From Peptoniphilaceae bacterium (GTDB taxonomy: Bacteria; Bacillota; Clostridia; Tissierellales; Peptoniphilaceae), in contig JAQYEZ010000067.1 in assembly GCA_028723425.1 (NCBI GenBank), positions 1 through 34,586 on the forward strand: a DNA stretch of 34,586 nucleotides, in the 5' to 3' direction. Positions 5,533 to 27,418 of the stretch are shown piece by piece (the first letter of the stretch is position 1; the number at the start of each line of letters is the position of its first letter). Made by a program: the position numbers and the translations under genes. The notes under the pieces were generated by a model. It had not been told where the DNA came from. It saw nothing but the letters and a program-made list of their open reading frames with translations, and searched no databases.

Positions 5533-7191
5533 ATGAATACTAGAGAATATTTACATGGTCAATCATCAGAAGGTTATAAGTTTTTTGGATGTCATAAAAG
5601 AAAAGAAGGAGGCTATATATTTAGACTTCTAGCCAAAGAAGCTACTAAGGTTTACATAGCAGGCGACTTTAATGATTGGAAGAAAGAAAGTGCTAGAAAA
5701 TATCCTACCGGTGTTTTTTCTATAAGAAATGCAAAGGCAAAAGAAGGGGACAGATATTGCTATTATATAGAGGATAAAAATTCTAAGCTTATACAAAAAC
5801 TTGACCCCTTTGGCAATCAAATAGATCCAAGTTTATCATATTCTGTAATTGCTGATACAGATTACAAGTTTACTAGCAAGAAGGTAAAAACTGATAAATT
5901 AAATATTTTTCAAGTAAATATACAATCCTATTTTGACTTATATAATAAAAAAACAAATCTAGCCTTTGAAGCTAAAGAATTAATTTCCTATGTAAAGGAT
6001 AATAACTTTACTCATATAGAGCTAATGCCAATAGTTCAAGTAAAGTTAGTAGATTCTCTTGGTTATAGGCCAATAAATCTTATTTCTTTAGACCAAAGTC
6101 TTGGTATAGTAAAGGAAATGAAAGAATTTGTAGATCTTTGCCATAAAAATAAGCTTGGGCTAATCCTTGATTTTGATTTTTCGGAATTTGATGATTTAAA
6201 ACAAGGACTTAAAGAATTTGATGGGACTAGAATGTATGAATCAGACTATGATGATATCAGATATAACTATTTTTCTGGCATGAACTTTGATACAAGTAAA
6301 AATTTGGTAAAATCATATATAATGTCTAGTTTAGAGTATTGGATAAATGAGTTTAATGTCGATTTAATAAAATTTTCAAATATCGAAAAATTAATTTATT
6401 GGCAAGGTGATTTTTCTAGAGGAATTAACACAAATTCTTATGAATTTGTAAAGACTTTAAATAAAAAAATACATGATTTAAAAAGTAAATCTATAGCCTC
6501 ATCAGCTTCAAGTAAAAATTTTATAGATAAAGAACTTGGTTTTGATTATATAGAAGATAATAGCCTTAGAGAGGTTATAAAAATTTTTCAAAAAGAGCCA
6601 TTTTTTAGGAACAACTATAAGAAGACTATCAGTAAGTTAATAAATAAAGATATGAGTGGAAGAATTTTGGCTCTTAACTATCTAGATTCTTTACTTGAAG
6701 GTTGCTCTCCAGCAATGAAAATGTATGGACAAGATTATAAATATGACCAATACAAGACTTTTATGACCCTATTATATACACTTAAAGCTGATAAGATGAT
6801 TTTTTCATCAGATGAAATAGGGGATCTAGAAAAGCGGTATGTTGGAAAACCTAAAAAAGTAAATTTAAATTCTAACCAAAGTGAGTTTGCTAGTTTTTTT
6901 AAGAGCTTAACTTCAATTTGTACAAAAAACAAGGCATTTTCTGATAAAAATTCAGAAATTATAGATCTTGATATAGAAGGTTATTCTATTTTTGCTTATA
7001 AGAGACTATATAAAAATGAAGAATTTTTAATCTTGTTAAATTTAACAGATATTGCTTATTCAATAGATTTAAGAAATACTTACATGATTATTTTGGCTAG
7101 TGATGATAAACTTTATCAAAAGCATAAAGATAAGCTTATGGAAAAAGTTAAGCTAAATAAATTCTCTTCTTGTATCTTAAAAAAGAAATAA
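5533..7191 (+). CDS. GlgB-like GH13 protein lacking all three catalytic acids
   Basis: Its architecture is that of glycogen branching enzyme: a CBM48 domain (about 25-110, with VYIAGDFNDW), a GH13 barrel (about 125-450, with FTHIELMPI) and a C-terminal beta domain. Ungapped comparison with the remembered GlgB consensus puts Ser282 where the nucleophile Asp of R-x-D-A-V should be, and Lys280 for its Arg. Ser323-Ser324 replace the Glu-Glu acid/base pair, and NYLD (382-385) replaces SHDE. The His of region I is Glu. The family reaction is therefore very unlikely. At 552 residues it is shorter than usual (about 620-730) but unbroken. AAGGAG precedes the ATG. A carbohydrate-binding or scaffolding role is inferred. 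Confidence 0.8.
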   Translation: MNTREYLHGQSSEGYKFFGCHKRKEGGYIFRLLAKEATKVYIAGDFNDWKKESARKYPTGVFSIRNAKAKEGDRYCYYIEDKNSKLIQKLDPFGNQIDPSLSYSVIADTDYKFTSKKVKTDKLNIFQVNIQSYFDLYNKKTNLAFEAKELISYVKDNNFTHIELMPIVQVKLVDSLGYRPINLISLDQSLGIVKEMKEFVDLCHKNKLGLILDFDFSEFDDLKQGLKEFDGTRMYESDYDDIRYNYFSGMNFDTSKNLVKSYIMSSLEYWINEFNVDLIKFSNIEKLIYWQGDFSRGINTNSYEFVKTLNKKIHDLKSKSIASSASSKNFIDKELGFDYIEDNSLREVIKIFQKEPFFRNNYKKTISKLINKDMSGRILALNYLDSLLEGCSPAMKMYGQDYKYDQYKTFMTLLYTLKADKMIFSSDEIGDLEKRYVGKPKKVNLNSNQSEFASFFKSLTSICTKNKAFSDKNSEIIDLDIEGYSIFAYKRLYKNEEFLILLNLTDIAYSIDLRNTYMIILASDDKLYQKHKDKLMEKVKLNKFSSCILKKK

Positions 7192-15041: not shown

Positions 15042-15626
15042 ATGTTAGACGAAGAATTACTAAGCAAAAAAAGAGCTATAGAATTGTGGGATTTAAAAAA
15101 AATAGATGAATTCGAAGTAGGCACATATAAAAGTTTGCAGCAAATACATAAGTATCTTTTCCAAGATATTTTTGACTTTGCAGGACAAACACGAACTGTA
15201 AATATGTCAAAAGGATACTTTAGATTTGCATCAGCATTGTATTTAGATGAAGCTTTAAAAAAAATAGAGAAAATGCCAGAATCTACCTATGATGAAATAA
15301 TAGAAAAATATGTAGAGATGAATGTTGCTCACCCTTTTAAAGAGGGAAATGGTCGTTCTACTAGGATATGGATTGATTTAATCTTAAAGAAAAATCTATC
15401 TAAGTGTATAGACTGGTCTAAAGTAGACAAACAAGACTACCTAAGTGCTATGGAAAGATCGCCAGTAAATTCTCTAGAAATTAATCATCTATTAAAACAA
15501 GCTCTTACTGACAAAATATATGATAGACAAGTTTATATGAGGGGCATACAACAATCATATATATACGAAGATTTAAATAAGTATAATATATATGATATTG
15601 ATATAGATAAAGATATAACAATATAA
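15042..15626 (+). CDS. Fic protein, class III-like AMP transferase
   Basis: The Fic fold transfers AMP (or a similar group) to protein hydroxyls. The canonical motif HPFKEGNGR is at 97-105, with the flap region (NMSKGYFRFAS, 54-64) before it. At the C-terminus MRGIQQSYIYED (166-177) matches the inhibitory helix of class III Fic proteins such as Neisseria NmFic; the S-x-x-x-E core is Ser172-Glu176, but Asp177 replaces the usual Gly/Asn. At 194 residues it is close to NmFic. The start at 15042 has AAGGAGG; the frame is open upstream to 14913 without a usable start codon. Nine bases separate it from the second Fic gene. Confidence 0.88.
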   Translation: MLDEELLSKKRAIELWDLKKIDEFEVGTYKSLQQIHKYLFQDIFDFAGQTRTVNMSKGYFRFASALYLDEALKKIEKMPESTYDEIIEKYVEMNVAHPFKEGNGRSTRIWIDLILKKNLSKCIDWSKVDKQDYLSAMERSPVNSLEINHLLKQALTDKIYDRQVYMRGIQQSYIYEDLNKYNIYDIDIDKDITI

Positions 15627-15635
15627 GGATAAGTC

Positions 15636-16310
15636 ATGATTACTGATAAATATAAGATGAGTCAAAAAGAAAATATTTTATATGCAAAAAGAAATATAAT
15701 AGACTATATATATAACTCTGCAAAGTTGGAAGGTCTAAAGGTAACTTTTCCTCAAACACAAGCAATATATAATAAGCTAAAAATTGATAATACAAGCGTA
15801 GATTTTGATGAAGTCAATAAGATATTAAACCTAAAGCATGCCTGGCAATACATAATTAAAAATATAGATAAAGAAATAAACTTAGGATTCATAAGTAGAG
15901 TACATGAAGAAGTCGCAAAAGATGAAGCACTAGAGTGGGGAAAAATAAGAACTGGTCAAGTAAGTATATCAGGTACTTATTATATACCACCAATACCTCA
16001 AAAAAAAGACGTGGAGGAACAACTATCAATTTTTAATAAAGATACTAATATAACTAATAGAGCAATTGATAGAATGCTTTATATGATGAAATCTCAAATA
16101 TTTTGGGATGGTAATAAAAGAACAGCTACAATTATTGCAAATAAAGATTTAATTTGTAATGGTGCAGGAATAATATCAGTAAAAGAAACTGATCTTTATA
16201 ATTTTAATATTTTGCTTACTAATTTTTATAATGATGATAGAAATAAAAATGAATTAAAGAACTTTTTATATGAAAAAAGCATAGATGGAATGTCTACAAA
16301 AAAAATTTAA
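15636..16310 (+). CDS. Fic-family protein with His-to-Gln in the active-site motif
   Basis: A 224-residue Fic protein with an N-terminal inhibitory motif SAKLEG (28-33), as in class II Fic proteins, followed by TFPQTQAIYN. The flap region ISGTYYIPPIP (111-121) is present. The core motif reads QIFWDGNKRT (154-163): Gln154 is where the catalytic His of HPFx(D/E)GNGR belongs. The Asp-Gly-Asn-x-Arg anion site is kept. Ordinary AMP transfer is therefore doubtful, but nucleotide binding is likely. I recall other Fic proteins with Q-x-F-x-D-G-N-K-R, so it may be a real subfamily. AAGGATAAG precedes the ATG; it is co-transcribed with the first Fic gene. Confidence 0.82.
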   Translation: MITDKYKMSQKENILYAKRNIIDYIYNSAKLEGLKVTFPQTQAIYNKLKIDNTSVDFDEVNKILNLKHAWQYIIKNIDKEINLGFISRVHEEVAKDEALEWGKIRTGQVSISGTYYIPPIPQKKDVEEQLSIFNKDTNITNRAIDRMLYMMKSQIFWDGNKRTATIIANKDLICNGAGIISVKETDLYNFNILLTNFYNDDRNKNELKNFLYEKSIDGMSTKKI

Positions 16311-17345: not shown

Positions 17346-17702
17346 TGGTGGAGATGAAGGGATTCGAACCCTTGTCCGTAGAGGCCTTGTAAAAAGCATC
17401 TACATGCTTAGTAAGTATTTAATTTTCCCAAGATTCTTATCTACTCACAAATAATTAATTTTGGTAGCTTCATAGATACTATTAAAACTCAAAGCTTTGT
17501 AATAATAGTTTGTCGCTAACTTATGAAATGAGTAGAAAACTTGCGACAAAAAGTTTTCTAGCCATTGCAGGCTTATTACTAAGCTGCAAGAGCGAATTGT
17601 TCGCTATTATTGTTTGCATTTATATTTAATTTGCAAGTTTACGACTTGCCAAACGGCATGCAACTAAAAACTCATCAACTACGTCGAGACCAAAACATCC
17701 CC
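17346..17702 (-). ncRNA. ssrA: tmRNA (transfer-messenger RNA)
   Basis: Rescues stalled ribosomes with SmpB and tags the nascent protein for proteolysis. The minus strand begins GGGGATGTTTTGGTCTCGAC (5' end, 17702) and ends GGGTTCGAATCCCTTCATCTC with CACCA, forming the tRNA-like domain. The resume codon GCA is at 17617-17615 and the tag frame reads ANNSEQFALAA followed by TAG (17581-17579). The LAA end is the normal protease signal. Downstream on the minus strand is a 7-base hairpin (GAGTTC/GAACTC, about 17325-17345), and the terminator is about 85 bases on. At 357 bases it has normal length. Confidence 0.95.
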
Positions 17703-17848: not shown

Positions 17849-18982
17849 ATGAGAAGTACAAATCATGTAGCAGCAATGCTTTTGGCAGGAGGTCAAGGTT
17901 CAAGACTTAAAGCTTTGACCAGAGATATGGCAAAACCTGTTGTTCCTTTCGGCGGAAAATATAGGATAATTGACTTTGCTTTAAGTAACTCTACAAATTC
18001 AGAGATAAGAGATATTGGCGTCTTAACCCAATATAAGCCACAACTTCTGAATACACACTTGGGTATTGGTTCTGCTTGGGACTATGATAGAAATTCTGGT
18101 GGCTTAAGAATTCTTTCACCTTATTATACTGAAGAAGGTGGTAGATGGTTTGAAGGCACAGCAGGAGCTATATACGAAAATATTAGATATCTTGATAATG
18201 TAAACCCTGAATACGTTTTAATTCTATCTGGGGACCACATATACAAGATGGACTATAGTAAGCTTTTGAATGTTCACAAGGAAAAAGGAGCAGATTGTAC
18301 CATTGCAGTTATGGAAGTTGAATGGGAGGAAGCCAGCAGATTTGGAATTATGAATACTGATGATGAGGGAAGAATTGTAGAGTTTGAAGAAAAACCAGTA
18401 AATCCTAAATCTAACTTAGCTTCTATGGGTATTTATATGTTCAATTGGAAAGTTTTGAGAAAGGCACTAATCGAAGATCACGAAGATCCAAATTCTTCTT
18501 ATGACTTTGGAAAGGATATTATTCCTAAATTGTTAAGGGAAGGTTCTCCACTATATGTATATAAATTTGATGGTTATTGGAAAGATGTTGGAACAGTTAG
18601 AAGTTATTGGCAAGCAAACCTCGATTTAATCAATCCAAATAACCCCTTAGATATTCACGATGATGACTGGAGAATTTATACAGCTTCATTAAATTTGCCA
18701 CCTCATAGAATTGGTAAAAATGCAGAACTTTCTGATGCTTTGATTAACGAGGGATGTATAATTGATGGAAAAGTTAACAATTCTGTCTTATTTTCAAATG
18801 TAATTATTGAAGAAGGTGCAGAAGTTTATAACTCTGTTGTTCTTTCTGGAACAATAATAAAATCTTCTAGTAAAGTCTACAATGCAGTTATAACTGAAGA
18901 TATGGTTATTGATAAAAATATAGGCAGCAAGGAAAGTAAATCTGTATTTTTAGTAAGCTCTGAAGGAATTGAGGAGGAGTAA
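17849..18982 (+). CDS. glgC: Glucose-1-phosphate adenylyltransferase
   Basis: Makes ADP-glucose from ATP and glucose-1-phosphate, the committed step of bacterial glycogen synthesis. The 377-residue protein has the nucleotide loop [10 protein letters not shown] (11-20), [13 protein letters not shown], the metal-site GDHIYKMDY and the sugar-phosphate motif EFEEKP. A left-handed beta-helix makes up the C-terminus. GGAGGCC precedes the ATG. It is followed after 3 bases by glgD, and the two probably form a hetero-tetramer. Confidence 0.95.
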
Positions 18983-18985
18983 GAT

Positions 18986-20101
18986 ATGCAAAATATAGTT
19001 GCTTTAATATATAGTTCAGAATATGAAGAAAGTAATTATGACAGTTTATGTAAGGTAAGACCTGATTATATGCTTCCTTTTGCTGGAAGATATAGGATAA
19101 TAGATTTTGCACTTTCAAATATCTCTAACTACAATATCACAAGCGTTGTTTTATATGCTGGTCTTAATATAAGATCAACCTTGGACCATGTTGGAAATGG
19201 CAGGAATTGGGAATTGAATAGAAGGATGGGAGGACTTAAAATTTATCCTTCTATTTACAATAAAATGGATAGCAATTCTGAGATTGAAACATATTTTTCT
19301 TCTATGAAGTTTTTTGAGGACTCTAATAGAGAATATGTTTATATAACAAACCCTATGTATATTACCAAAGTTGATATATCTGATGCATATGAAACAATGA
19401 TTTCTGAAAATCTTGATTGCCTAGTTTTTTCTAAAAAAGTTAAGGATGATTATGGTTTTTATTTGAATAGACGAATAATTAATCTTGATGAAGAGGGAGA
19501 AGCTATTGGTGTTGGTATAAACCTTGGTCTACAAGATGAAATTGAACTATTTACTGGATCTATTTTGATTAAAAAATCAATCTTTATGGATTTACTCAGA
19601 TACTCAATAGAAAAAAATAATGCAGATACTGTACTTGAAGCAATATTTAAATATCCTAAGGAAATTATAACTGGTCTTTACAGGTCAAGTTCAACTTTAC
19701 AAGTAATACAAGATACTTTGTCTTATTATGATGCAAATAGAAAACTTTTGGATAGGGATTATTTTAATGAGCTTTTCTATGAAAATGGAATGGTTTATAC
19801 TAAATCTAAAGACGAACCGTCAACAGAGTATACAAAAGACTCGGTTGTTAAAAATTCCTTGATAGCAAATGGTGCTATTATTCAAGGTCATGTAGAAGAT
19901 TCTATTATATTTAGGGGTGTAACTGTTAAAAAAGGAGCAGTTGTAAAAAATTCTATTGTATTTCAAGGTACAATAGTTGGAGAGGGATCTATATTGAATA
20001 ATGTTATCACAGATAAGGATACCATTATAGGCGACCACATTCATTTATTTGGAAATAGGATTCATCCATTCCTAACAGAAAAAGGCGAACACATTAATTA
20101 A
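18986..20101 (+). CDS. glgD: GlgD, non-catalytic partner of ADP-glucose pyrophosphorylase
   Basis: A 371-residue GlgC paralogue. It keeps the fold ([27 protein letters not shown]-terminal beta-helix repeats) but the N-terminal GGxGxRL loop is replaced by ALIYSSEYEESNYDS, and the GDH metal site by TNPMYITKVD. In Firmicutes GlgD modulates GlgC without activity of its own. GAGGAGGAG at the end of glgC serves as ribosome site. It is a known pseudoenzyme, unlike the GlgP-like protein further down the operon. Confidence 0.95.
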   Translation: MQNIVALIYSSEYEESNYDSLCKVRPDYMLPFAGRYRIIDFALSNISNYNITSVVLYAGLNIRSTLDHVGNGRNWELNRRMGGLKIYPSIYNKMDSNSEIETYFSSMKFFEDSNREYVYITNPMYITKVDISDAYETMISENLDCLVFSKKVKDDYGFYLNRRIINLDEEGEAIGVGINLGLQDEIELFTGSILIKKSIFMDLLRYSIEKNNADTVLEAIFKYPKEIITGLYRSSSTLQVIQDTLSYYDANRKLLDRDYFNELFYENGMVYTKSKDEPSTEYTKDSVVKNSLIANGAIIQGHVEDSIIFRGVTVKKGAVVKNSIVFQGTIVGEGSILNNVITDKDTIIGDHIHLFGNRIHPFLTEKGEHIN

Positions 20102-20112
20102 AGGGGTTTAGA

Positions 20113-21540
20113 ATGAAAGTTTTATTTTTAGCAAGTGAAGCAGTACCATTTGTAAAAACAGGAGGTCTAGCAGATGTAGCTGGCTCTCTACCAAAAGAGT
20201 TAAAGAAAAATGGAATTGACGTTAGAGTTGCTCTACCTTTGTACAAGACTATAGATAATGTATATAGGTCAAAGATGAAAAAAGTAACAGAATTTTATGT
20301 AGACCTTGATTGGAAACATCAATATGCTGGAGTATATGCTATTGACTGGGATGATGTTACATATTATTTTATCGATAATTTGGAATATTTTGACAGACCA
20401 AGTCCTTACGGATATGACGATGATGGTGAAAGATTTATCTTCTTTTCAAAGGCTACAACACTGCTTTCAAAAAAAATAGACTTTAAACCAGATATTATCC
20501 ATACAAATGATTGGCATACGGCCTTGGTAAATGTTTATGTCAATGATTTTAGAAAGGGAGATCATTTCTTTGATGATATTAAAACATTATTTACTATACA
20601 CAATTTAAAATATCAAGGAGTATTTGATTCGGGCTATCTTAAATTCACTGGTTTGGATGGGTCATATTTTAACGAAAATGATTTAAAATACTATGAAGCT
20701 ATTAATCTTATGAAAGGTGGTATAGTTCATTGTAATTATTTAAATACTGTTTCTAAAAACTATGCTAGAGAAATAAAATATCCTTTCTATGGGGAAGGGC
20801 TTGATGGTATAATCAGGAAATATGAAGCTAAGCTTTCTGGTATAGTTAATGGAATTGACTATGATATATGGAATCCAAAAACTGATGAATTTATATTTAA
20901 GAATTACAGCCTGGCTACTATAAAGAATAAGAAAGCTAATAAGCTTGGTCTACAAAAATTATATTCTCTTCCACAAAGAGAAGATGTTCCTTTAATTGGA
21001 ATTTGTTCAAGACTTACAGCTATGAAAGGTTTTGACTTGGTAAGATACATTTTGGAGGAGCTCTTACAAGAAGATATTCAGCTTGTAATTATTGGTACTG
21101 GTGATTATACTTATGAAGAAATGTTTAAGTATTTTGAATGGAAGTATCCTAAAAAAGTTGCTGCAAGGATATACTATGACGGTGAAGAAAGTCATAAATT
21201 ATATGCAGGATGTGATTTTTTGATGATGCCATCAATATCAGAACCATGCGGAATAAGTCAATTAATAGCTATGAAGTATGCTACACTTCCAATAGTAAGA
21301 GAAGCTGGTGGTTTGAAAGATACAGTTATTCCTTACAATGAATACACTAAGGAAGGAACAGGATATTCTTTTAAAAATATAAATGCTCATGAGCTTTTAT
21401 TTACTACTAAAAAAGCTATTGAAGTCTATCTTAATAAGAAGGATGACCACCTAGCTTTGATGAAAAACGCTATGAGTGCTGTTCATGACTGGAAGAAGTC
21501 AGCAGAAGAATATGTTAATTTGTATGAGAGTTTAATTTAA
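20113..21540 (+). CDS. glgA: Glycogen synthase (GT5)
   Basis: Extends alpha-1,4-glucan from ADP-glucose. The 475-residue protein has the ADP-glucose motif KTGGLADV near residue 15, HTNDWHTAL, NGIDYDIWNP, the SRLTAMKGFDL segment with its Arg and Lys, and the catalytic-Glu loop SISEPCGISQ near the C-terminal third. All key residues are present, so the enzyme should be active. It starts 11 bases after glgD, with AAGGGG in the gap. Confidence 0.95.
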   Translation: MKVLFLASEAVPFVKTGGLADVAGSLPKELKKNGIDVRVALPLYKTIDNVYRSKMKKVTEFYVDLDWKHQYAGVYAIDWDDVTYYFIDNLEYFDRPSPYGYDDDGERFIFFSKATTLLSKKIDFKPDIIHTNDWHTALVNVYVNDFRKGDHFFDDIKTLFTIHNLKYQGVFDSGYLKFTGLDGSYFNENDLKYYEAINLMKGGIVHCNYLNTVSKNYAREIKYPFYGEGLDGIIRKYEAKLSGIVNGIDYDIWNPKTDEFIFKNYSLATIKNKKANKLGLQKLYSLPQREDVPLIGICSRLTAMKGFDLVRYILEELLQEDIQLVIIGTGDYTYEEMFKYFEWKYPKKVAARIYYDGEESHKLYAGCDFLMMPSISEPCGISQLIAMKYATLPIVREAGGLKDTVIPYNEYTKEGTGYSFKNINAHELLFTTKKAIEVYLNKKDDHLALMKNAMSAVHDWKKSAEEYVNLYESLI

Positions 21541-21544
21541 ATAG

Positions 21545-23809
21545 ATGGATATGAAAAATAATATCATAGAAAGAATACAAAATTTTTTGTATTCTTTTTA
21601 TGCTAAAGACGTAAAAGATGCAAGAATTAATGAAATTTATCATGGTCTCTGTCACTGCCTAATGGAAGTTATAGGAAAAAGATGGGTTGAGGCTAAAAAA
21701 ACTCACTTTGATGAAAATTATTATATTTTAAGTTTTGAGTACATGCCTGGTAGGTTTTTGGAAAATAACATTAGAAAATTAAAAATTGAAGATAAAATAA
21801 GAGAGGCTCTTAAGGATCTTGGCTTTAGTTATGAAGAAATTTTATCTTATGAAGAAGAACCATCAATTGGCAATGGTGAAATAGGCATAGGCTCATCTTA
21901 TATATTAAATGAGCTTACAAAAAGGAATATAAAAACTTTGGCTTACTCCCTAAGATATGAAGGCGGAAATATGAGACAAGTCATAAAAAATGGTATGCAA
22001 GTAGAAGTTTCAGACCATTGGCTAAATAGTGCTAACAAATGGGAACACAAGAAGGGCTTTTATACAGAGCTTGAAATAGATGGAAAAAAGCTAAAGGCAA
22101 CAGCCTATGATATGCCAGTTCTTAGTGATAAAACTGCTTATGTAAATACCTTAAGGTTATGGTCATCAAATCCTATTTCAAAAATTGATTTTCAAGATTT
22201 TTCTAGGGGTGATTTGATAAAAGCCTATGATGATTACATAATGGATTCATCTATAACCCAGTTTTTATATCTTGATAATTCTACCTATGAAGGAAAATTT
22301 TTAAGATTAAAACAAGAATATTTTTATGCCTATGCTTGTGTGCATGATATTTTTAGAAGATACTTTAAAAATTTTAAAGACGTAGAAAAAATTAAGGATA
22401 AGATTAAAATTTTGGTTTCAGATGTTCACCCAGCTTTAGCCCTGGTTGAATTTGTTAAAGTTCTTTATGACCAATATGCTTTTACTTATAAAAAGGCAAT
22501 TGAATTTTCTAGAAATATTTTTGAACATTTTGTTTTTTTAATAACAGAAGACTCTCATGAAGAATATGACCTATCCATGGTAGAAAAACTAAATATGGAT
22601 TTTTATAAAAGTCTTGTTGAAATAAACGATTTTTTAATAGAAGAAAATCCAAAAAATCATATAATAAATAATAGTAAAGTTTCACTCAATAATATAAACA
22701 AGTACTTATCAAAAGAATATTTGATAAGTTCACAACTTATATATCAGGGTGTAAAGAAAAAAGACAAGATAAAATTAAAGAATATTAATTTTGGCATAGA
22801 TAGAGATCTTTATGGATCAAGTTGCAACAAAAGATTGGCTAAGTTTTTATATGAATATGGAATAGATGATTTTAGTGTAGATAAGATTAGAAAAGTCTCA
22901 AATTTGTATATGAATAATAGTTTTATTGATGGCTTGGAAGAATTAAAAATTAAAAATAAAAAAAGCTTTATAGAAAAATATTATAAAAAAGAGTCAAGGC
23001 TTAATCCTTATTCAATATTTGATATCCAAGCTACTAATTTTCATGAAGCTAAAAGACAGTTGTTAAATGCCTTGTCAATTGCAGATTTGTATTATAGGTT
23101 AAAAGAGAATTCTAGCCTTGATATTGTCCCTACAACTTATATTTTTTCAGGCAAAGCAAATGAAGGTTATTATATAGCTAAAGAAAGTATTAAATTTATA
23201 CTTGCTTTAAAAAAAATGATAGAAAAAGATAGGCTTATAAAGGAAAAAATCAAGATACTTTTTGTAGAGAACTTAAATGTATCAAAATCTAGAATTTTAT
23301 ATCCAATTTGCGATATTTATTCAAATTTGACTTTACCCTTATATGATAATAACGGATTTGAAATTTTAGCATCTTGCATGAATTTCTCAAATGTTGTAAC
23401 AAGTAAAGGCGGCATTTCAAATAACCAAAAAGAACCAAAACATAGTTTCTATTTAATAGGCCAAGATTTAGATAAATTGGAAAGAGATAGATCTGAAAAT
23501 TCATATCAGGCAAATAACTATTATTATAGCCATGAAAGAGTTAGAAATACTGTTGATTATTTGATCAAAGAAGACTATGATAATTTCTCTTATAATTTTA
23601 AAACCATATATGATTATTTGATAAATTATAATGATAGTTTCTATATATTTAAAGATATGGAAGAAGTAAGCCAAAAAAGAATTGAAATTTCAAAAGATTA
23701 TTTAAATAAAAACTTGTGGGTTAAAAATGAAATTGATAATATTTTATGGGCTAATGAGTTTTATTTAGGTGAAAATGCAAAAAATATTGTGAAGAGGAGT
23801 AAGATATAG
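21545..23809 (+). CDS. GlgP-like protein without the PLP lysine (phosphorylase pseudoenzyme)
   Basis: The full-length fold is that of glycogen phosphorylase (754 residues; family about 750-830): SFEYMPGRFLENN (63-75), YSLRYEGGNMRQ (134-145), VNTLRLWSSNP (200-210), SDVHPALA (292-299) and FDIQATNFHEAKRQLLN (492-508) all align. Ungapped alignment from NVS (578) through the conserved Pro587 and Asp590 to Gly604 and Gly623 puts Ala609 where the family has the PLP lysine of GNMK. The phosphate-site Lys-Arg is Thr497-Asn498. The HSVNG and KTNGITPRRW segments are unrecognisable and GNGGLG is GNGEIG. No frameshift or stop is present. Phosphorolysis is therefore very unlikely; a glucan-binding or regulatory role is inferred. 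Its ribosome site is weak (GAGAG). Confidence 0.82.
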   Translation: MDMKNNIIERIQNFLYSFYAKDVKDARINEIYHGLCHCLMEVIGKRWVEAKKTHFDENYYILSFEYMPGRFLENNIRKLKIEDKIREALKDLGFSYEEILSYEEEPSIGNGEIGIGSSYILNELTKRNIKTLAYSLRYEGGNMRQVIKNGMQVEVSDHWLNSANKWEHKKGFYTELEIDGKKLKATAYDMPVLSDKTAYVNTLRLWSSNPISKIDFQDFSRGDLIKAYDDYIMDSSITQFLYLDNSTYEGKFLRLKQEYFYAYACVHDIFRRYFKNFKDVEKIKDKIKILVSDVHPALALVEFVKVLYDQYAFTYKKAIEFSRNIFEHFVFLITEDSHEEYDLSMVEKLNMDFYKSLVEINDFLIEENPKNHIINNSKVSLNNINKYLSKEYLISSQLIYQGVKKKDKIKLKNINFGIDRDLYGSSCNKRLAKFLYEYGIDDFSVDKIRKVSNLYMNNSFIDGLEELKIKNKKSFIEKYYKKESRLNPYSIFDIQATNFHEAKRQLLNALSIADLYYRLKENSSLDIVPTTYIFSGKANEGYYIAKESIKFILALKKMIEKDRLIKEKIKILFVENLNVSKSRILYPICDIYSNLTLPLYDNNGFEILASCMNFSNVVTSKGGISNNQKEPKHSFYLIGQDLDKLERDRSENSYQANNYYYSHERVRNTVDYLIKEDYDNFSYNFKTIYDYLINYNDSFYIFKDMEEVSQKRIEISKDYLNKNLWVKNEIDNILWANEFYLGENAKNIVKRSKI

Positions 23810-25680
23810 ATTATCAAAGTATTAAAGATTATCAGTTAGGAGCAATTTATCAAAAAAATAAAACGACATTTAGAGTATTTGCCCCAAATAGAGAAAAAAT
23901 TGATCTTCTTCTGACTGATGATTATAGGAAAGTAAGAAAAAAAGTTCTACCTATGAAAAAAAACAAGGACGATATATTTGAACTTGTTGTAAATGAAGAT
24001 TTGGACGGATATTTTTATTCTTATCTTGTAGATGAAAAGTACCAAGTGACAGATCCTTATTCAAAGGCATCTTCTATTAATAGCCTTATGTCTTGTGTTA
24101 TTGACCTTTCAAAAACTGACCCTGAAGGATTTAGAAATTCTAAAGTAAAAGACAATAAGGAAGATGATGCTATTATTTATGAATTGAGTGTAAAGGATTA
24201 TACCAGTCATGAAACATCTGGTGTAAAGCAAAAAGGAAAATTTTTGGGCTTAGCTGAACTTAATACATCGTATAAAGAATTTTCTACAGGCCTTTCTCAT
24301 TTAAAAGATTTGGGAGTAACCCATATTCAACTTATGCCTATCTATGATTTTATAACAACCTTTGAAGAGCCTTATATGTTTTTTGATGATGATAATTACA
24401 ATTGGGGTTATGATCCAGAACTATATTTTAATGTTGAAGGCTCTTATGCAACCAATCCTTATGATGCAAAGTCTAGGATTTATGAATTAAAAAAGATGAT
24501 AAAAGAAATTCATGATCAAGGCATGTCTGTTGTTATGGATGTTGTCTTTAATCATACTTATAGGTCTTTAGATTCTAATCTTGAACTACTTGCTGGTGAC
24601 TATTATCATAGAAGAGAAAAAGATGGAAGTCTTTCAAACGGTACTGGTGTTGGTAATGAAATTGCATCGGAAAAGCCCTTTGTAAGAAAACTAATAATTG
24701 ATTGCTTGAAATATTGGGCTTATGAGTTTAAAATAGATGGTTTTAGATTTGATTTGATGGCTGTTTTAGATTTAGATACTATTAAGCTTGCCTTAGAAGA
24801 ACTAAAGAAGATAAATAAAAATATTATTCTTTATGGGGAACCTTGGATGGCTTTTTCTTCACCCCTAGATATAGACCAACAAATTTGGATACCCAAACAA
24901 AAATCCAATGGTTTTGGAGTCTTTAATGATAGATTTAGGGATGCCATTAAGGGAGATAATGATGGCTATGCCATAGGCTATATACAAGGAGATTATTCTT
25001 TAAAAACAAAAATTGAAGAAGGTATGGCAGGATCAATTTATTATGATGAAAAAAGACCTGGAATTTGTGATTATGCAAGTGAAACCATAAATTATTTTAA
25101 TTGCCATGACAATTTAATCTTTTATGATAAATTATTGGTTTCTTTAAGCGAAAAAATCTATATTGATGAAATAACAAAACTTGCCTTTGGGATTTTGTTT
25201 TTATCTTTAGGTAAGCCATTTATATATGAAGGAAATGAGTTTAACAATACTAAATTTAACGATAGTAATTCCTACTCATCATCTCTAAAGATAAATGCAG
25301 TGGATTGGAAACTAAAGGAAAAAAATTATGATCTTTACCTATATGTAAGAGATATAATTGAATTAAGAAAAGAAAATAGAGAATTCTTATCAATGGTAGA
25401 TCCAAAAGAAATCAGAAAAAGAATGTCTTTTTTAGCTAATATGCCAGAATATATAGTAGGCTATGTTATTAAAGGGGATAAAGAAAGTTTACTTGTTATA
25501 ATTAATGCAGGAAAAAATGATTACACCATAGATTTAGAAGAATTTAATGGATGGGCTTATAAGAATAAAGAAATTAGAAAGATTTTTGATAAAAAGGGTA
25601 AAATAAATAAAAGCCTTAGTTTAGGAAAAAAAGAAAATATAGAACAATTGTCTGTAAATGTTTACAAAATTGGAGGATAA
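23806..25680 (+). CDS. Type I pullulanase / glycogen-debranching GH13 enzyme, apparent ATA start
   Basis: Cleaves alpha-1,6 branches. From 23806 it is 624 residues: CBM48 region (about 10-90, LGAIYQKNKTTFRVFAP), the pullulanase signature YNWGYDP (198-204), MDVVFNH (244-250), nucleophile Asp316 in DGFRFD, acid Glu345 in GEPW and Asp435 in NCHDN. All catalytic residues are present. The first ATG, at 23953, would remove half of the CBM48. The frame is open to a stop at 23800, and GAGGAG (23794-23799) is correctly spaced for ATA at 23806, overlapping the glgP-like stop by 4 bases. Either ATA is used, or an ancestral ATG was mutated or misread. Confidence 0.85.
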   Translation: MDYQSIKDYQLGAIYQKNKTTFRVFAPNREKIDLLLTDDYRKVRKKVLPMKKNKDDIFELVVNEDLDGYFYSYLVDEKYQVTDPYSKASSINSLMSCVIDLSKTDPEGFRNSKVKDNKEDDAIIYELSVKDYTSHETSGVKQKGKFLGLAELNTSYKEFSTGLSHLKDLGVTHIQLMPIYDFITTFEEPYMFFDDDNYNWGYDPELYFNVEGSYATNPYDAKSRIYELKKMIKEIHDQGMSVVMDVVFNHTYRSLDSNLELLAGDYYHRREKDGSLSNGTGVGNEIASEKPFVRKLIIDCLKYWAYEFKIDGFRFDLMAVLDLDTIKLALEELKKINKNIILYGEPWMAFSSPLDIDQQIWIPKQKSNGFGVFNDRFRDAIKGDNDGYAIGYIQGDYSLKTKIEEGMAGSIYYDEKRPGICDYASETINYFNCHDNLIFYDKLLVSLSEKIYIDEITKLAFGILFLSLGKPFIYEGNEFNNTKFNDSNSYSSSLKINAVDWKLKEKNYDLYLYVRDIIELRKENREFLSMVDPKEIRKRMSFLANMPEYIVGYVIKGDKESLLVIINAGKNDYTIDLEEFNGWAYKNKEIRKIFDKKGKINKSLSLGKKENIEQLSVNVYKIGG

Positions 25681-25681
25681 G

Positions 25682-27376
25682 ATGCAAGATTACAAAAAAG
25701 TATATGAAACATGGGCAAATGATAATTTTTTTGACCAAAAAACAAGAGATGAATTAAAAAAAATAGCTGATAATGAAGAAGAAATAAAAGATAGATTTTA
25801 TCATGAATTAGAATTTGGTACTGCAGGTCTTAGAGGAAAACTTGGAGCTGGTACTAATAGAATGAATGTCTATATGGTAGGAAAGGCAAGTCAAGGCTTT
25901 GCAGATACAATAATATCTGAAGGCAAGGAAGCTATGGCTAGGGGAGTTGTTATTTGCCATGATGTAAGACATATGTCAGATGAATTTTCTAAGCTAGCTG
26001 CAGAAATATTTGCTGCTAATGGTATAAAGGTTTATATTTTTAAAGATATTCAACCAACACCAGTTTGTTCCTACGCTATCAGATATTTAAAAACAATAGC
26101 AGGTGTTATGGTAACTGCTAGTCATAATCCTAAAGAATATAATGGTTACAAGGCCTATTGGGAAGATGGCAGTCAAATTTTAGAAGAAACTGCCAACAAA
26201 ATATTATCCAATATGAAAAAATACGATGATTATTCTAAAATTAAGAGAATGGACTTTGAAAAAGGACTCGAAGATGGAATAATTGAGTGGATTGATGATC
26301 AATTAATCGATGATTATGTAAAAGATGTTAAGGCTTGCGCTATAAACGAAGATATAGACAAGGATGTAAATATAGTTTATTCTCCATTAAATGGTTGTGG
26401 TAATAAATTGGTTAGAAGGATTTTAGCTCAAAGAGATTTTACAAATATTCATGTGGTTAAAGAACAAGAAAATCCAGATCCTGATTTTACTACAGTTGGT
26501 TATCCAAATCCCGAAGACCCAAAAGCCTTTTTATATTCAGAAAAGTTAGGTAAAGAAGTAAATGCTGACCTATTACTTGCTACAGATCCTGATTCAGATA
26601 GGTGTGCAGTTGAAGTTAAAAATGAAAAAGGCGAGTATATCTTCCTAACAGGTAATGAAATTGGAACCTTGTTGACTAACTATATTCTAAGTCAATTACA
26701 TGCTAAGGGCGAGTTAAAAGAGGATTCTGCCATAGTTAAATCATTGGTATCCACAGATATGGTTAAACCAATAGCTAAATCTTACGGTGTTGATGTATAT
26801 GAGGTTTTAACTGGCTTTAAAAATATCTATGAAGTTGCCAATAGATTTGAAGCAAATGGTAAGGGAAACTTTGTATTTGGTTTTGAAGAATCAATAGGCT
26901 ATAATTATAAAGACTTTGTAAGAGATAAAGATGCTGTTAACTCTGCTATGTTAATCTCTGAAATGACAGGTTACTACAAAAAACAAGGAAAAACTTTGCT
27001 AGATGTTTTAGAAGATTTGTACAAAGAGTTTGGATATTATTCAACAAATGTAATTTCTATAGTTCTAGAAGGATTAGATGGTCAGGCAAGAATTTCTAGA
27101 ATAATGGATTATGTAAGAAAGAATCCATTAAAAGAACTTGCAGGAGAAAAAGTAGATACAATTGTTGATTACTTAAATGATGACACAGGTTTAAACAAGT
27201 CTAATGTACTAAAATATTACTTTACAGATAAATCATGGTTTGCACTTAGACCTTCAGGAACTGAACCAAAAATTAAGCTTTATGTAAATGCCATAGCAGA
27301 TAGCAAAGAAGCTTCAGACAAAAAACTAAATCAAATAGTTAAAGATATGCAAGAAGTTATAGAAAGTGTTAAATAA
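25682..27376 (+). CDS. Phosphoglucomutase (alpha-D-phosphohexomutase)
   Basis: Interconverts glucose-1-phosphate and glucose-6-phosphate, linking glycogen to glycolysis and UDP-sugar synthesis. The 564-residue protein has the phosphoserine loop TASHNPKEYNGYK, the metal loop TDPDSDRC, the sugar loop GFEESIGY and the C-terminal phosphate loop RPSGTEPKIK. This is the long PgcA/PGM2-like type. GGAGG at 25672-25676 supports the ATG at 25682; an in-frame ATG at 25658 lies inside the pullulanase gene. Last gene of the operon; a terminator follows. Confidence 0.93.
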   Translation: MQDYKKVYETWANDNFFDQKTRDELKKIADNEEEIKDRFYHELEFGTAGLRGKLGAGTNRMNVYMVGKASQGFADTIISEGKEAMARGVVICHDVRHMSDEFSKLAAEIFAANGIKVYIFKDIQPTPVCSYAIRYLKTIAGVMVTASHNPKEYNGYKAYWEDGSQILEETANKILSNMKKYDDYSKIKRMDFEKGLEDGIIEWIDDQLIDDYVKDVKACAINEDIDKDVNIVYSPLNGCGNKLVRRILAQRDFTNIHVVKEQENPDPDFTTVGYPNPEDPKAFLYSEKLGKEVNADLLLATDPDSDRCAVEVKNEKGEYIFLTGNEIGTLLTNYILSQLHAKGELKEDSAIVKSLVSTDMVKPIAKSYGVDVYEVLTGFKNIYEVANRFEANGKGNFVFGFEESIGYNYKDFVRDKDAVNSAMLISEMTGYYKKQGKTLLDVLEDLYKEFGYYSTNVISIVLEGLDGQARISRIMDYVRKNPLKELAGEKVDTIVDYLNDDTGLNKSNVLKYYFTDKSWFALRPSGTEPKIKLYVNAIADSKEASDKKLNQIVKDMQEVIESVK

Positions 27377-27392
27377 AACTTAATAATATATG

Positions 27393-27418
27393 AGAAGAGG
27401 CTTTTGGTCTCTTCTTTT
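27393..27418 (+). terminator. Terminator of the glycogen operon
   Basis: AGAAGAGGC (27393-27401), TTTTG loop, GTCTCTTCT (27407-27415), then Ts. Eight Watson-Crick pairs and one G-T. Confidence 0.75.

Follow-up and report, generated by a model that had tools for sequence, protein, structure and literature searches.

A conserved glycogen phosphorylase homologue without the PLP lysine, very likely inactive as a phosphorylase, in the glycogen operon of a Peptoniphilaceae genus

In this study we analysed a protein, referred to as X, which is encoded in the glycogen operon of a Peptoniphilaceae bacterium within a stretch of 34,586 nucleotides (the window; Table 1). We are highly confident that X is a maintained protein and not a phosphorylase. 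Judged from sequence comparisons, the operon's own glycogen phosphorylase would have become a non-catalytic, PLP-free protein that is kept by purifying selection, and the chances are about even that it now binds glucan and acts as a regulator of, or scaffold for, the enzymes of glycogen synthesis.

Table 1. Position of X, its altered segments and the neighbouring features in the window
Feature	Position	Strand	Basis
GlgB (branching-enzyme) paralogue with CBM48, 552 aa, possibly related	5533..7191	+	profile and alignment
glgC, ADP-glucose pyrophosphorylase catalytic subunit	17849..18982	+	NF003670, 574 bits
glgD, paralogue of GlgC (in other Firmicutes its regulatory subunit)	18986..20101	+	TIGR02092, 285 bits (cut-off 236.6)
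glgA, glycogen synthase	20113..21540	+	NF001898, 639 bits
X, pseudo-phosphorylase, PF00343 fold, 754 aa, no PLP lysine	21545..23809	+	profile match and alignments
X residues 109-114, GNGEIG, formerly GNGGLG	21869..21886	+	alignment
X residues 497-503, TNFHEAK, formerly KRIHEYK; final Lys (rabbit K574) retained	23033..23053	+	alignments
X residues 601-609, DNNGFEILA, formerly EASGTGNMK loop	23345..23371	+	alignments
X Ala609, codon GCA, column of the PLP lysine (rabbit Lys680)	23369..23371	+	all alignments agree
pulA, type I pullulanase	23953..25680	+	TIGR02104, 546 bits, match from profile position 52
pgm, phosphoglucomutase-type mutase	25658..27376	+	PF02878, PF02879, PF02880, PF00408
terminator-like stem-loop 3' of pgm	27392..27416	+	consensus scan

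The frame of X is uninterrupted. Homology to phosphorylases along the whole protein, as proposed in an earlier note on this DNA, was borne out by Pfam PF00343 (372.7 bits at a cut-off of 27, residues 89-739), whereas the match to NCBIfam TIGR02093 stayed under its cut-off (391.6 against 552.9 bits). X was aligned to phosphorylases of the PDB, to canonical paralogues and to 33 phosphorylases from viral-contig and cyanobacterial loci. Columns are named after the residue numbers and roles of the rabbit enzyme, with a PDB chain offset of 11 taken from the alignment. The PDB and multiple alignments concurred that Ala609 stands at the PLP-lysine position, as the earlier note had claimed, and its replacement of the phosphate-binding Lys-Arg pair was found again, as Thr497-Asn498 fall into the Lys568-Arg569 columns. 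The Tyr573 column holds Ala502, the Tyr648-Arg649 columns hold Leu577-Asn578 and EASGTG is replaced by DNNGFE. Moreover, Phe331, Phe416 and Glu112 occupy the columns of His377, Asn484 and Gly135. The PLP-contact segments VNG and TNGITPRRW are absent and GNGGLG is altered, both as noticed before. Retained are Arg254 (R292), Asp293 (D339), His295 (H341), Lys503 (K574), Lys537 and Tyr542 (Y613). We infer that most anion-binding groups have been lost from X and that an acidic residue lies where phosphate would approach. A PLP-binding lysine elsewhere in the protein, for which the earlier note had proposed to look, is not evident since residues 601-613 contain no lysine; Lys or Arg at position 621 is common among the copies of the genus and not invariant.

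Among the features of a functional GT35 enzyme, X has the fold with the PF00343 match and lacks the PLP lysine, the phosphate residues and loop, and a sufficient TIGR02093 score. With these losses X cannot work as a phosphorylase through the mechanism known for GT35, and the inactivity suggested in the earlier note is very likely with both the PLP and the phosphate sites gone. Its premise that all phosphorylases depend on PLP stands within GT35 but, to our knowledge, not beyond this family.

An AlphaFold2 model of X, for which 33 ordinary phosphorylases served as input alignment, reached a pLDDT of 78.8 and a pTM of 0.79. The stretches of low confidence (332-337, 392-417, 598-602, 625-630 and 739-754) lie mostly within or beside the altered active-site loops, which is expected as X differs there from the other rows of the alignment. 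In Foldseek the top matches were chains of E. coli GlgP (best 9s7v) with a TM of 0.86-0.87 to the query.

The genes glgC-glgD-glgA-X-pulA-pgm are all located on the + strand with tight spacing, and the ATG of X lies 4 bases 3' of the glgA stop. The operon had been described before as otherwise intact, but glgB is not part of it. A genome without branching enzyme was ruled out, as GlgB (L255) with intact catalytic motifs is encoded on contig C26; a search of the genome for GH57 found none. The coding region of pulA probably starts near 23806 rather than at 23953. No stop interrupts its frame upstream as far as 23806, the part from 23806 to 23952 reads ...GAIYQKNKTTFRVFAPN..., the residues encoded upstream of 23953 match the N-terminus expected of the family and GAGGAG at 23794 lies ahead of the open frame. 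The pulA frames of the congeners, mostly 626-643 aa, are also longer than the frame called from 23953 in the window. No ATG, GTG or TTG occurs in the frame from 23806 to 23952, and the first codon could be an ATA overlapping the stop of X. The terminator scan found 2 candidates in the window compared to 3.1 expected in shuffles and is not significant alone. Besides, a tmRNA gene (17346-17702, - strand, tag ANNNSEQFALAA) lies immediately upstream of glgC, and two tandem Fic-domain ORFs (15042-16310; PF02661, 51 and 31.7 bits) were observed.

X was found in all 30 further genomes of the same genus with an identity of about 48-52%. The slot glgC-glgD-glgA-X is present in each of these congeners (20 loci L050-L069, nine loci L226-L234, and G003 as L038), followed by pulA in 29, and in G004 the contig ends. 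The copy of G003 is clearly broken and that of G030 is frameshifted near the N-terminus (pieces of 701 and 80 aa); in the other congeners the frames measure 735-780 aa, and 29 of the 31 genus genomes have an unbroken X. For the residue counts 30 genus copies were aligned, namely the window and 29 congeners, with the broken copy of G003 left out. The PLP column holds Asn in 28 of them, Ala in one (the window), His in one and Lys in none, a loss that by these counts is more than chance. K568, R569 and Y573 occur in 0/30, and Lys568, Arg569, Arg649, Thr676, Gly677 and Lys680 are lost in 30/30, of which Arg649 is variable in normal phosphorylases as well. The Gly135 column is acidic throughout (D 27, E 3). 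R292, D339, H341, K574 and Y613 are retained in every copy, the changes E672D, A673N, T676F and W491Y are fixed, and so are D601, N602 and F605 in window numbers.

For ten close pairs of the genus (those of 435 with dS under 0.9) the dN/dS of X was 0.054-0.111 with a median of 0.063. The neighbouring genes reached 0.035 (glgC), 0.043 (glgD), 0.034 (glgA) and, over 8 pairs, 0.080 (pulA) and 0.031 (pgm). In the 62 pairs with dS under 1.5 the median of X was 0.29, which we read as saturation in AT-rich genes and set aside. The 34 former active-site columns had a mean entropy of 0.64, compared to an average of 1.25 for 741 sites (none of 20000 random draws reached so low a value). This is mostly due to 12 retained columns (0.16); the 22 changed columns averaged 0.90, only moderately under the background (a value reached or undercut by 673 of 20000 draws). 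Normal enzymes are near-invariant at 94 columns that have changed in X. In 28 of these the new residue is fixed to at least 90%, for example E601D, A602N, T605F, K609N, Q594N and H331F (window numbers); a fixation of at least 95% was reached by 18% of the 94 and by 23% of all sites. Furthermore, the genus shows 51 X-specific residues with a fixation of at least 97%, 8 of them within residues 10-44. In a comparison with seven neighbouring genes X evolved the fastest (mean distance 0.708, 28 genomes). The low dN/dS in close pairs, the presence throughout the genus and the conserved operon slot support the view, already taken in the earlier note from the open frame, that X is maintained by selection. 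By its low close-pair dN/dS and its 55 unbroken loci out of 59, X does not behave as a pseudogene with relaxed constraint and disabled frames.

Searches at family, order and class level with a profile of X, combined with fetched neighbourhoods, revealed X in 28 further genomes, 21 of family f1 and 7 of family f4. In all of them X lies in the glg operon, and between glgA and pulA where the contig has both. The class search covered 391 genomes sampled from a larger group at a threshold of 1e-150, at which the known X genomes G039 and G235 were missed. Therefore, the spread of X is a lower bound. Excluding the broken copies of G095 and G120, the latter with a loop closer to normal (KEPCGTTVMK), 26 outside copies remained for residue counts. 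Their PLP column holds Lys in 11, Thr in 4, Ile in 3, Asn in 3, Ala in 2, Arg in 2 and Glu in one. A general absence of the lysine in orthologues, which had been put forward for checking, thus holds within the genus but not outside of it. The SGT(G/S)xxK loop is absent from all 56 copies (30 genus and 26 outside), none of which has an EASGTG loop, and part of this absence, like the Lys in 45 of 45 normal rows, is given by construction since normal and X rows were sorted by the SGTGNMK motif in the first tree. Independent of this sorting, all phosphorylases beside glgA in f1 and f4 fell into X. The least altered copies (L072, L074, L075) still have 13-14 of the 22 site residues that were tabulated, and the tree of 51 proteins requires at least 5 changes of the lysine state. 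Taken from these alignments, the phosphate loop is lost in every aligned X and the PLP lysine was lost several times. A scan of genome contigs gave a single locus, an ordinary cyanobacterial phosphorylase. Plasmid searches found no close relative and the first viral-contig scan found none; a second viral-contig scan gave ordinary phosphorylases, which were used solely in the structure alignment.

Broken X loci amount to 4 of 59 (G003, G030, G095, G120), with 55 unbroken. Broken relatives, which would indicate plain decay according to the earlier note, therefore exist, but as they are few, decay does not explain most copies; it was also mostly rejected by the close-pair dN/dS and the frame conservation. 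By our count, 36 genomes of f1 and f4 have glgA with no X found. We fetched the glgA loci of 20 of them and compared their ORFs of at least 90 aa to a profile built from 56 X, which gave no match. In 15 of the 20, glgA runs straight into pulA (gap -17 to 165 bases), which indicates that X is dispensable in these relatives; one locus has 966 bases between glgA and pulA and four have no pulA nearby. Perhaps the absence of X is tolerated since the second phosphorylase covers glycogen breakdown. Three X-less glgA loci (L247, L252, L254) have no recognisable glgC, glgD or pulA nearby, which suggests isolated or different glycogen-synthase loci.

The second phosphorylase is encoded by the genome's only other PF00343 gene (contig C66, 980.7 bits). 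It is a normal phosphorylase of 807 aa with 1054.7 bits to TIGR02093 and adjoins malQ, a GH77 4-alpha-glucanotransferase. Neither this enzyme nor the occurrence of the X trait in at least two families was part of the earlier note. 30 of the 31 genomes of the genus and 27 of the 28 other X genomes gave a second phosphorylase match. In G002 (contig C247) and G014 (contig C22) a second phosphorylase copy is split or stop-riddled and X is intact; G014 has an additional divergent phosphorylase (L037) with the motif EASGTGNMK.

A first tree of 79 proteins supported an X clade (SH-aLRT 99) and gave long-branch warnings. In the second tree of 51 proteins, with long-branch and redundant rows removed, X formed one side of a branch with a bootstrap of 99 and an SH-aLRT of 95. 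X groups with L219-L221 (support 100/99.7), ordinary GlgPs of two other families which occupy the slot glgC-glgD-glgA-P-pulA. Of the six top class matches outside f1 and f4, five were fetched (L219-L223) and G406 was left out. All five keep the PLP lysine and 20-21 of the 22 site residues; three have Ser for Gly677, and none of the five matched both of two further motif patterns. A derivation of X from the second, MalQ-linked phosphorylase was rejected (p-AU 0.0129). The trees point to a descent of X from the operon GlgP, with the long X branches as a caveat; vertical descent and transfer between f1 and f4 are both compatible with the tree. The slot of X corresponds to the ordinary glgP slot, based on the operon order glgBCDAP-amy-pgm of Lactobacillus acidophilus given in an excerpt of PMC4282360.

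With Lys568, Arg569, Lys680 and Thr676 lost, an acidic Gly135 column and Arg292, Asp339, His341, Lys574 and Tyr613 kept, the cleft of X would no longer bind phosphate or PLP but could still accommodate a neutral alpha-glucan chain. The strongly conserved N-terminal cap segment, which in muscle phosphorylase is part of the dimer face, may carry a partner. Our preferred reading is that X docks as a glucan-holding regulatory or scaffold subunit on GlgA or GlgC/GlgD, as GlgD serves GlgC. Such a role is suggested by the location of the gene (glgA on one side, pulA on the other), by a cleft that is partly kept and has lost anion-binding groups, and by the conserved N-terminus. A partial mirror-tree analysis gave values of 0.55 for glgA, 0.47 for pulA and 0.15 each for glgC and glgD. 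It named no partner of X, as the unrelated rodA (itself background) reached 0.52, about as high as glgA.

Alternatively, X could heterodimerise with the MalQ-linked GlgP via the phosphorylase dimer face and thereby brake or target glycogen breakdown. The N-terminal segment near this face ranks with the better conserved stretches of X, the second phosphorylase accompanies X in nearly all genomes, and the entry titles of E. coli GlgP, the best structural match, say dimer and tetramer. We nevertheless regard this as unlikely since X lies beside the synthesis genes and not beside malQ-glgP, a second phosphorylase is present in X-less relatives too, and in G002 the second copy is split over two frames while X is intact. 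That X is a remnant of the operon phosphorylase in slow decay, tolerated since the second enzyme replaced it, seems distinctly improbable with a pulA-like dN/dS in the close pairs, frames that stay open in 29 of the 31 genus genomes at an identity of about 50%, and 51 X-specific residues fixed to at least 97%, even though the four broken loci, the other genera of the same families without X, the fastest evolution of the eight genes and a fixation of the changed columns that is overall not above average sites would fit it.

A new PLP-free GT-B activity, for instance nucleotide-sugar transfer or hydrolysis, would be in line with the frequent use of nucleotide sugars by GT-B folds, with several altered cleft residues fixed in the genus, and with an Asp in the Glu672 column together with Lys574 in all 30 genus copies. 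It is, in our view, very unlikely as the same copies have lost the phosphate groups and carry the acidic Gly135 column, and the pocket, in the 26 outside copies, varies from one X lineage to another, which a conserved catalytic site would not. Least of all do we expect a sensor or weak phosphorylase that binds PLP or phosphate non-covalently: the lysine in 11 of 26 outside copies and the site residues kept in L072, L074 and L075 speak for it, but the EASGTG loop is found in no X, and six site residues, from Lys568 to Lys680, are gone from all 30 genus copies.

The window contains a second conserved glycogen pseudoenzyme, the GlgB paralogue, which lies about 10.7 kb upstream of glgC. It was checked in the window and 19 congeners, and all 20 copies have lost the nucleophile Asp of GH13 as well as both Glu/Asp of the acid motif. 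Asp is missing from the third Asp column too, which may be misaligned, since an Asp follows one residue further in all 20 copies. All three GH13 residues are intact in five GlgBs, one of them the genome's own (L255). One could imagine that glycogen is assembled on a platform of retired enzymes, in which GlgD (from GlgC), X (from GlgP) and this protein (from GlgB, with its glucan-binding CBM48) jointly bind nascent chains and enzymes, although we consider it unlikely.

We know of no conserved non-catalytic member of the GT35 family. Our searches of open-access literature brought up no description of a bacterial GT35 protein that lacks catalysis, and a term search in the portion covered of a 2024 review (PMC11046441) gave no passage on such an inactive phosphorylase. 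Pseudoenzymes of glycogen metabolism are known (GlgD), and the phosphorylase case appears to be new. The graded series from ordinary operon GlgPs over lysine-keeping intermediates to lysine-free X makes the change of function testable. Moreover, general models such as Pfam will call X a glycogen phosphorylase, and glycogen breakdown will be misassigned in this group.

Compared to bacterial GlgP and MalP (GT35), X shows whole-length PF00343 homology and a predicted fold with a TM of 0.86 to E. coli GlgP. It also shares the operon slot of bacterial GlgP (L219-L221; L. acidophilus in the excerpt of PMC4282360). In contrast to these enzymes it has no PLP lysine, phosphate loop, Lys568-Arg569, VNG or TNGITPRRW and scores under the TIGR02093 cut-off. 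GlgD, the inactive GlgC paralogue of Firmicutes, is likewise a dead glycogen-enzyme paralogue kept in the operon, and X, with its dead catalytic site beside the pathway enzymes, resembles it in this respect. This is an analogy of function; GlgD belongs to another fold and enzyme. According to an excerpt of PMC9093745, GlgD is inactive and yet alters the kinetics of GlgC in GlgC/GlgD forms. In plants, the non-catalytic isoamylase paralogue ISA2 is a dead alpha-glucan enzyme that was retained as well, in the accessible part of PMC12510319 for glucan binding and complex formation. Unlike X, ISA2 is of the isoamylase class, acts on plant starch and shares no common descent with X. A platform of retired enzymes, if true, would be the bacterial counterpart of the plant helpers ISA2, LESV and PTST, and if X has the proposed role, the retention of dead alpha-glucan enzymes in a structural or regulatory function would be common to bacteria and plants.
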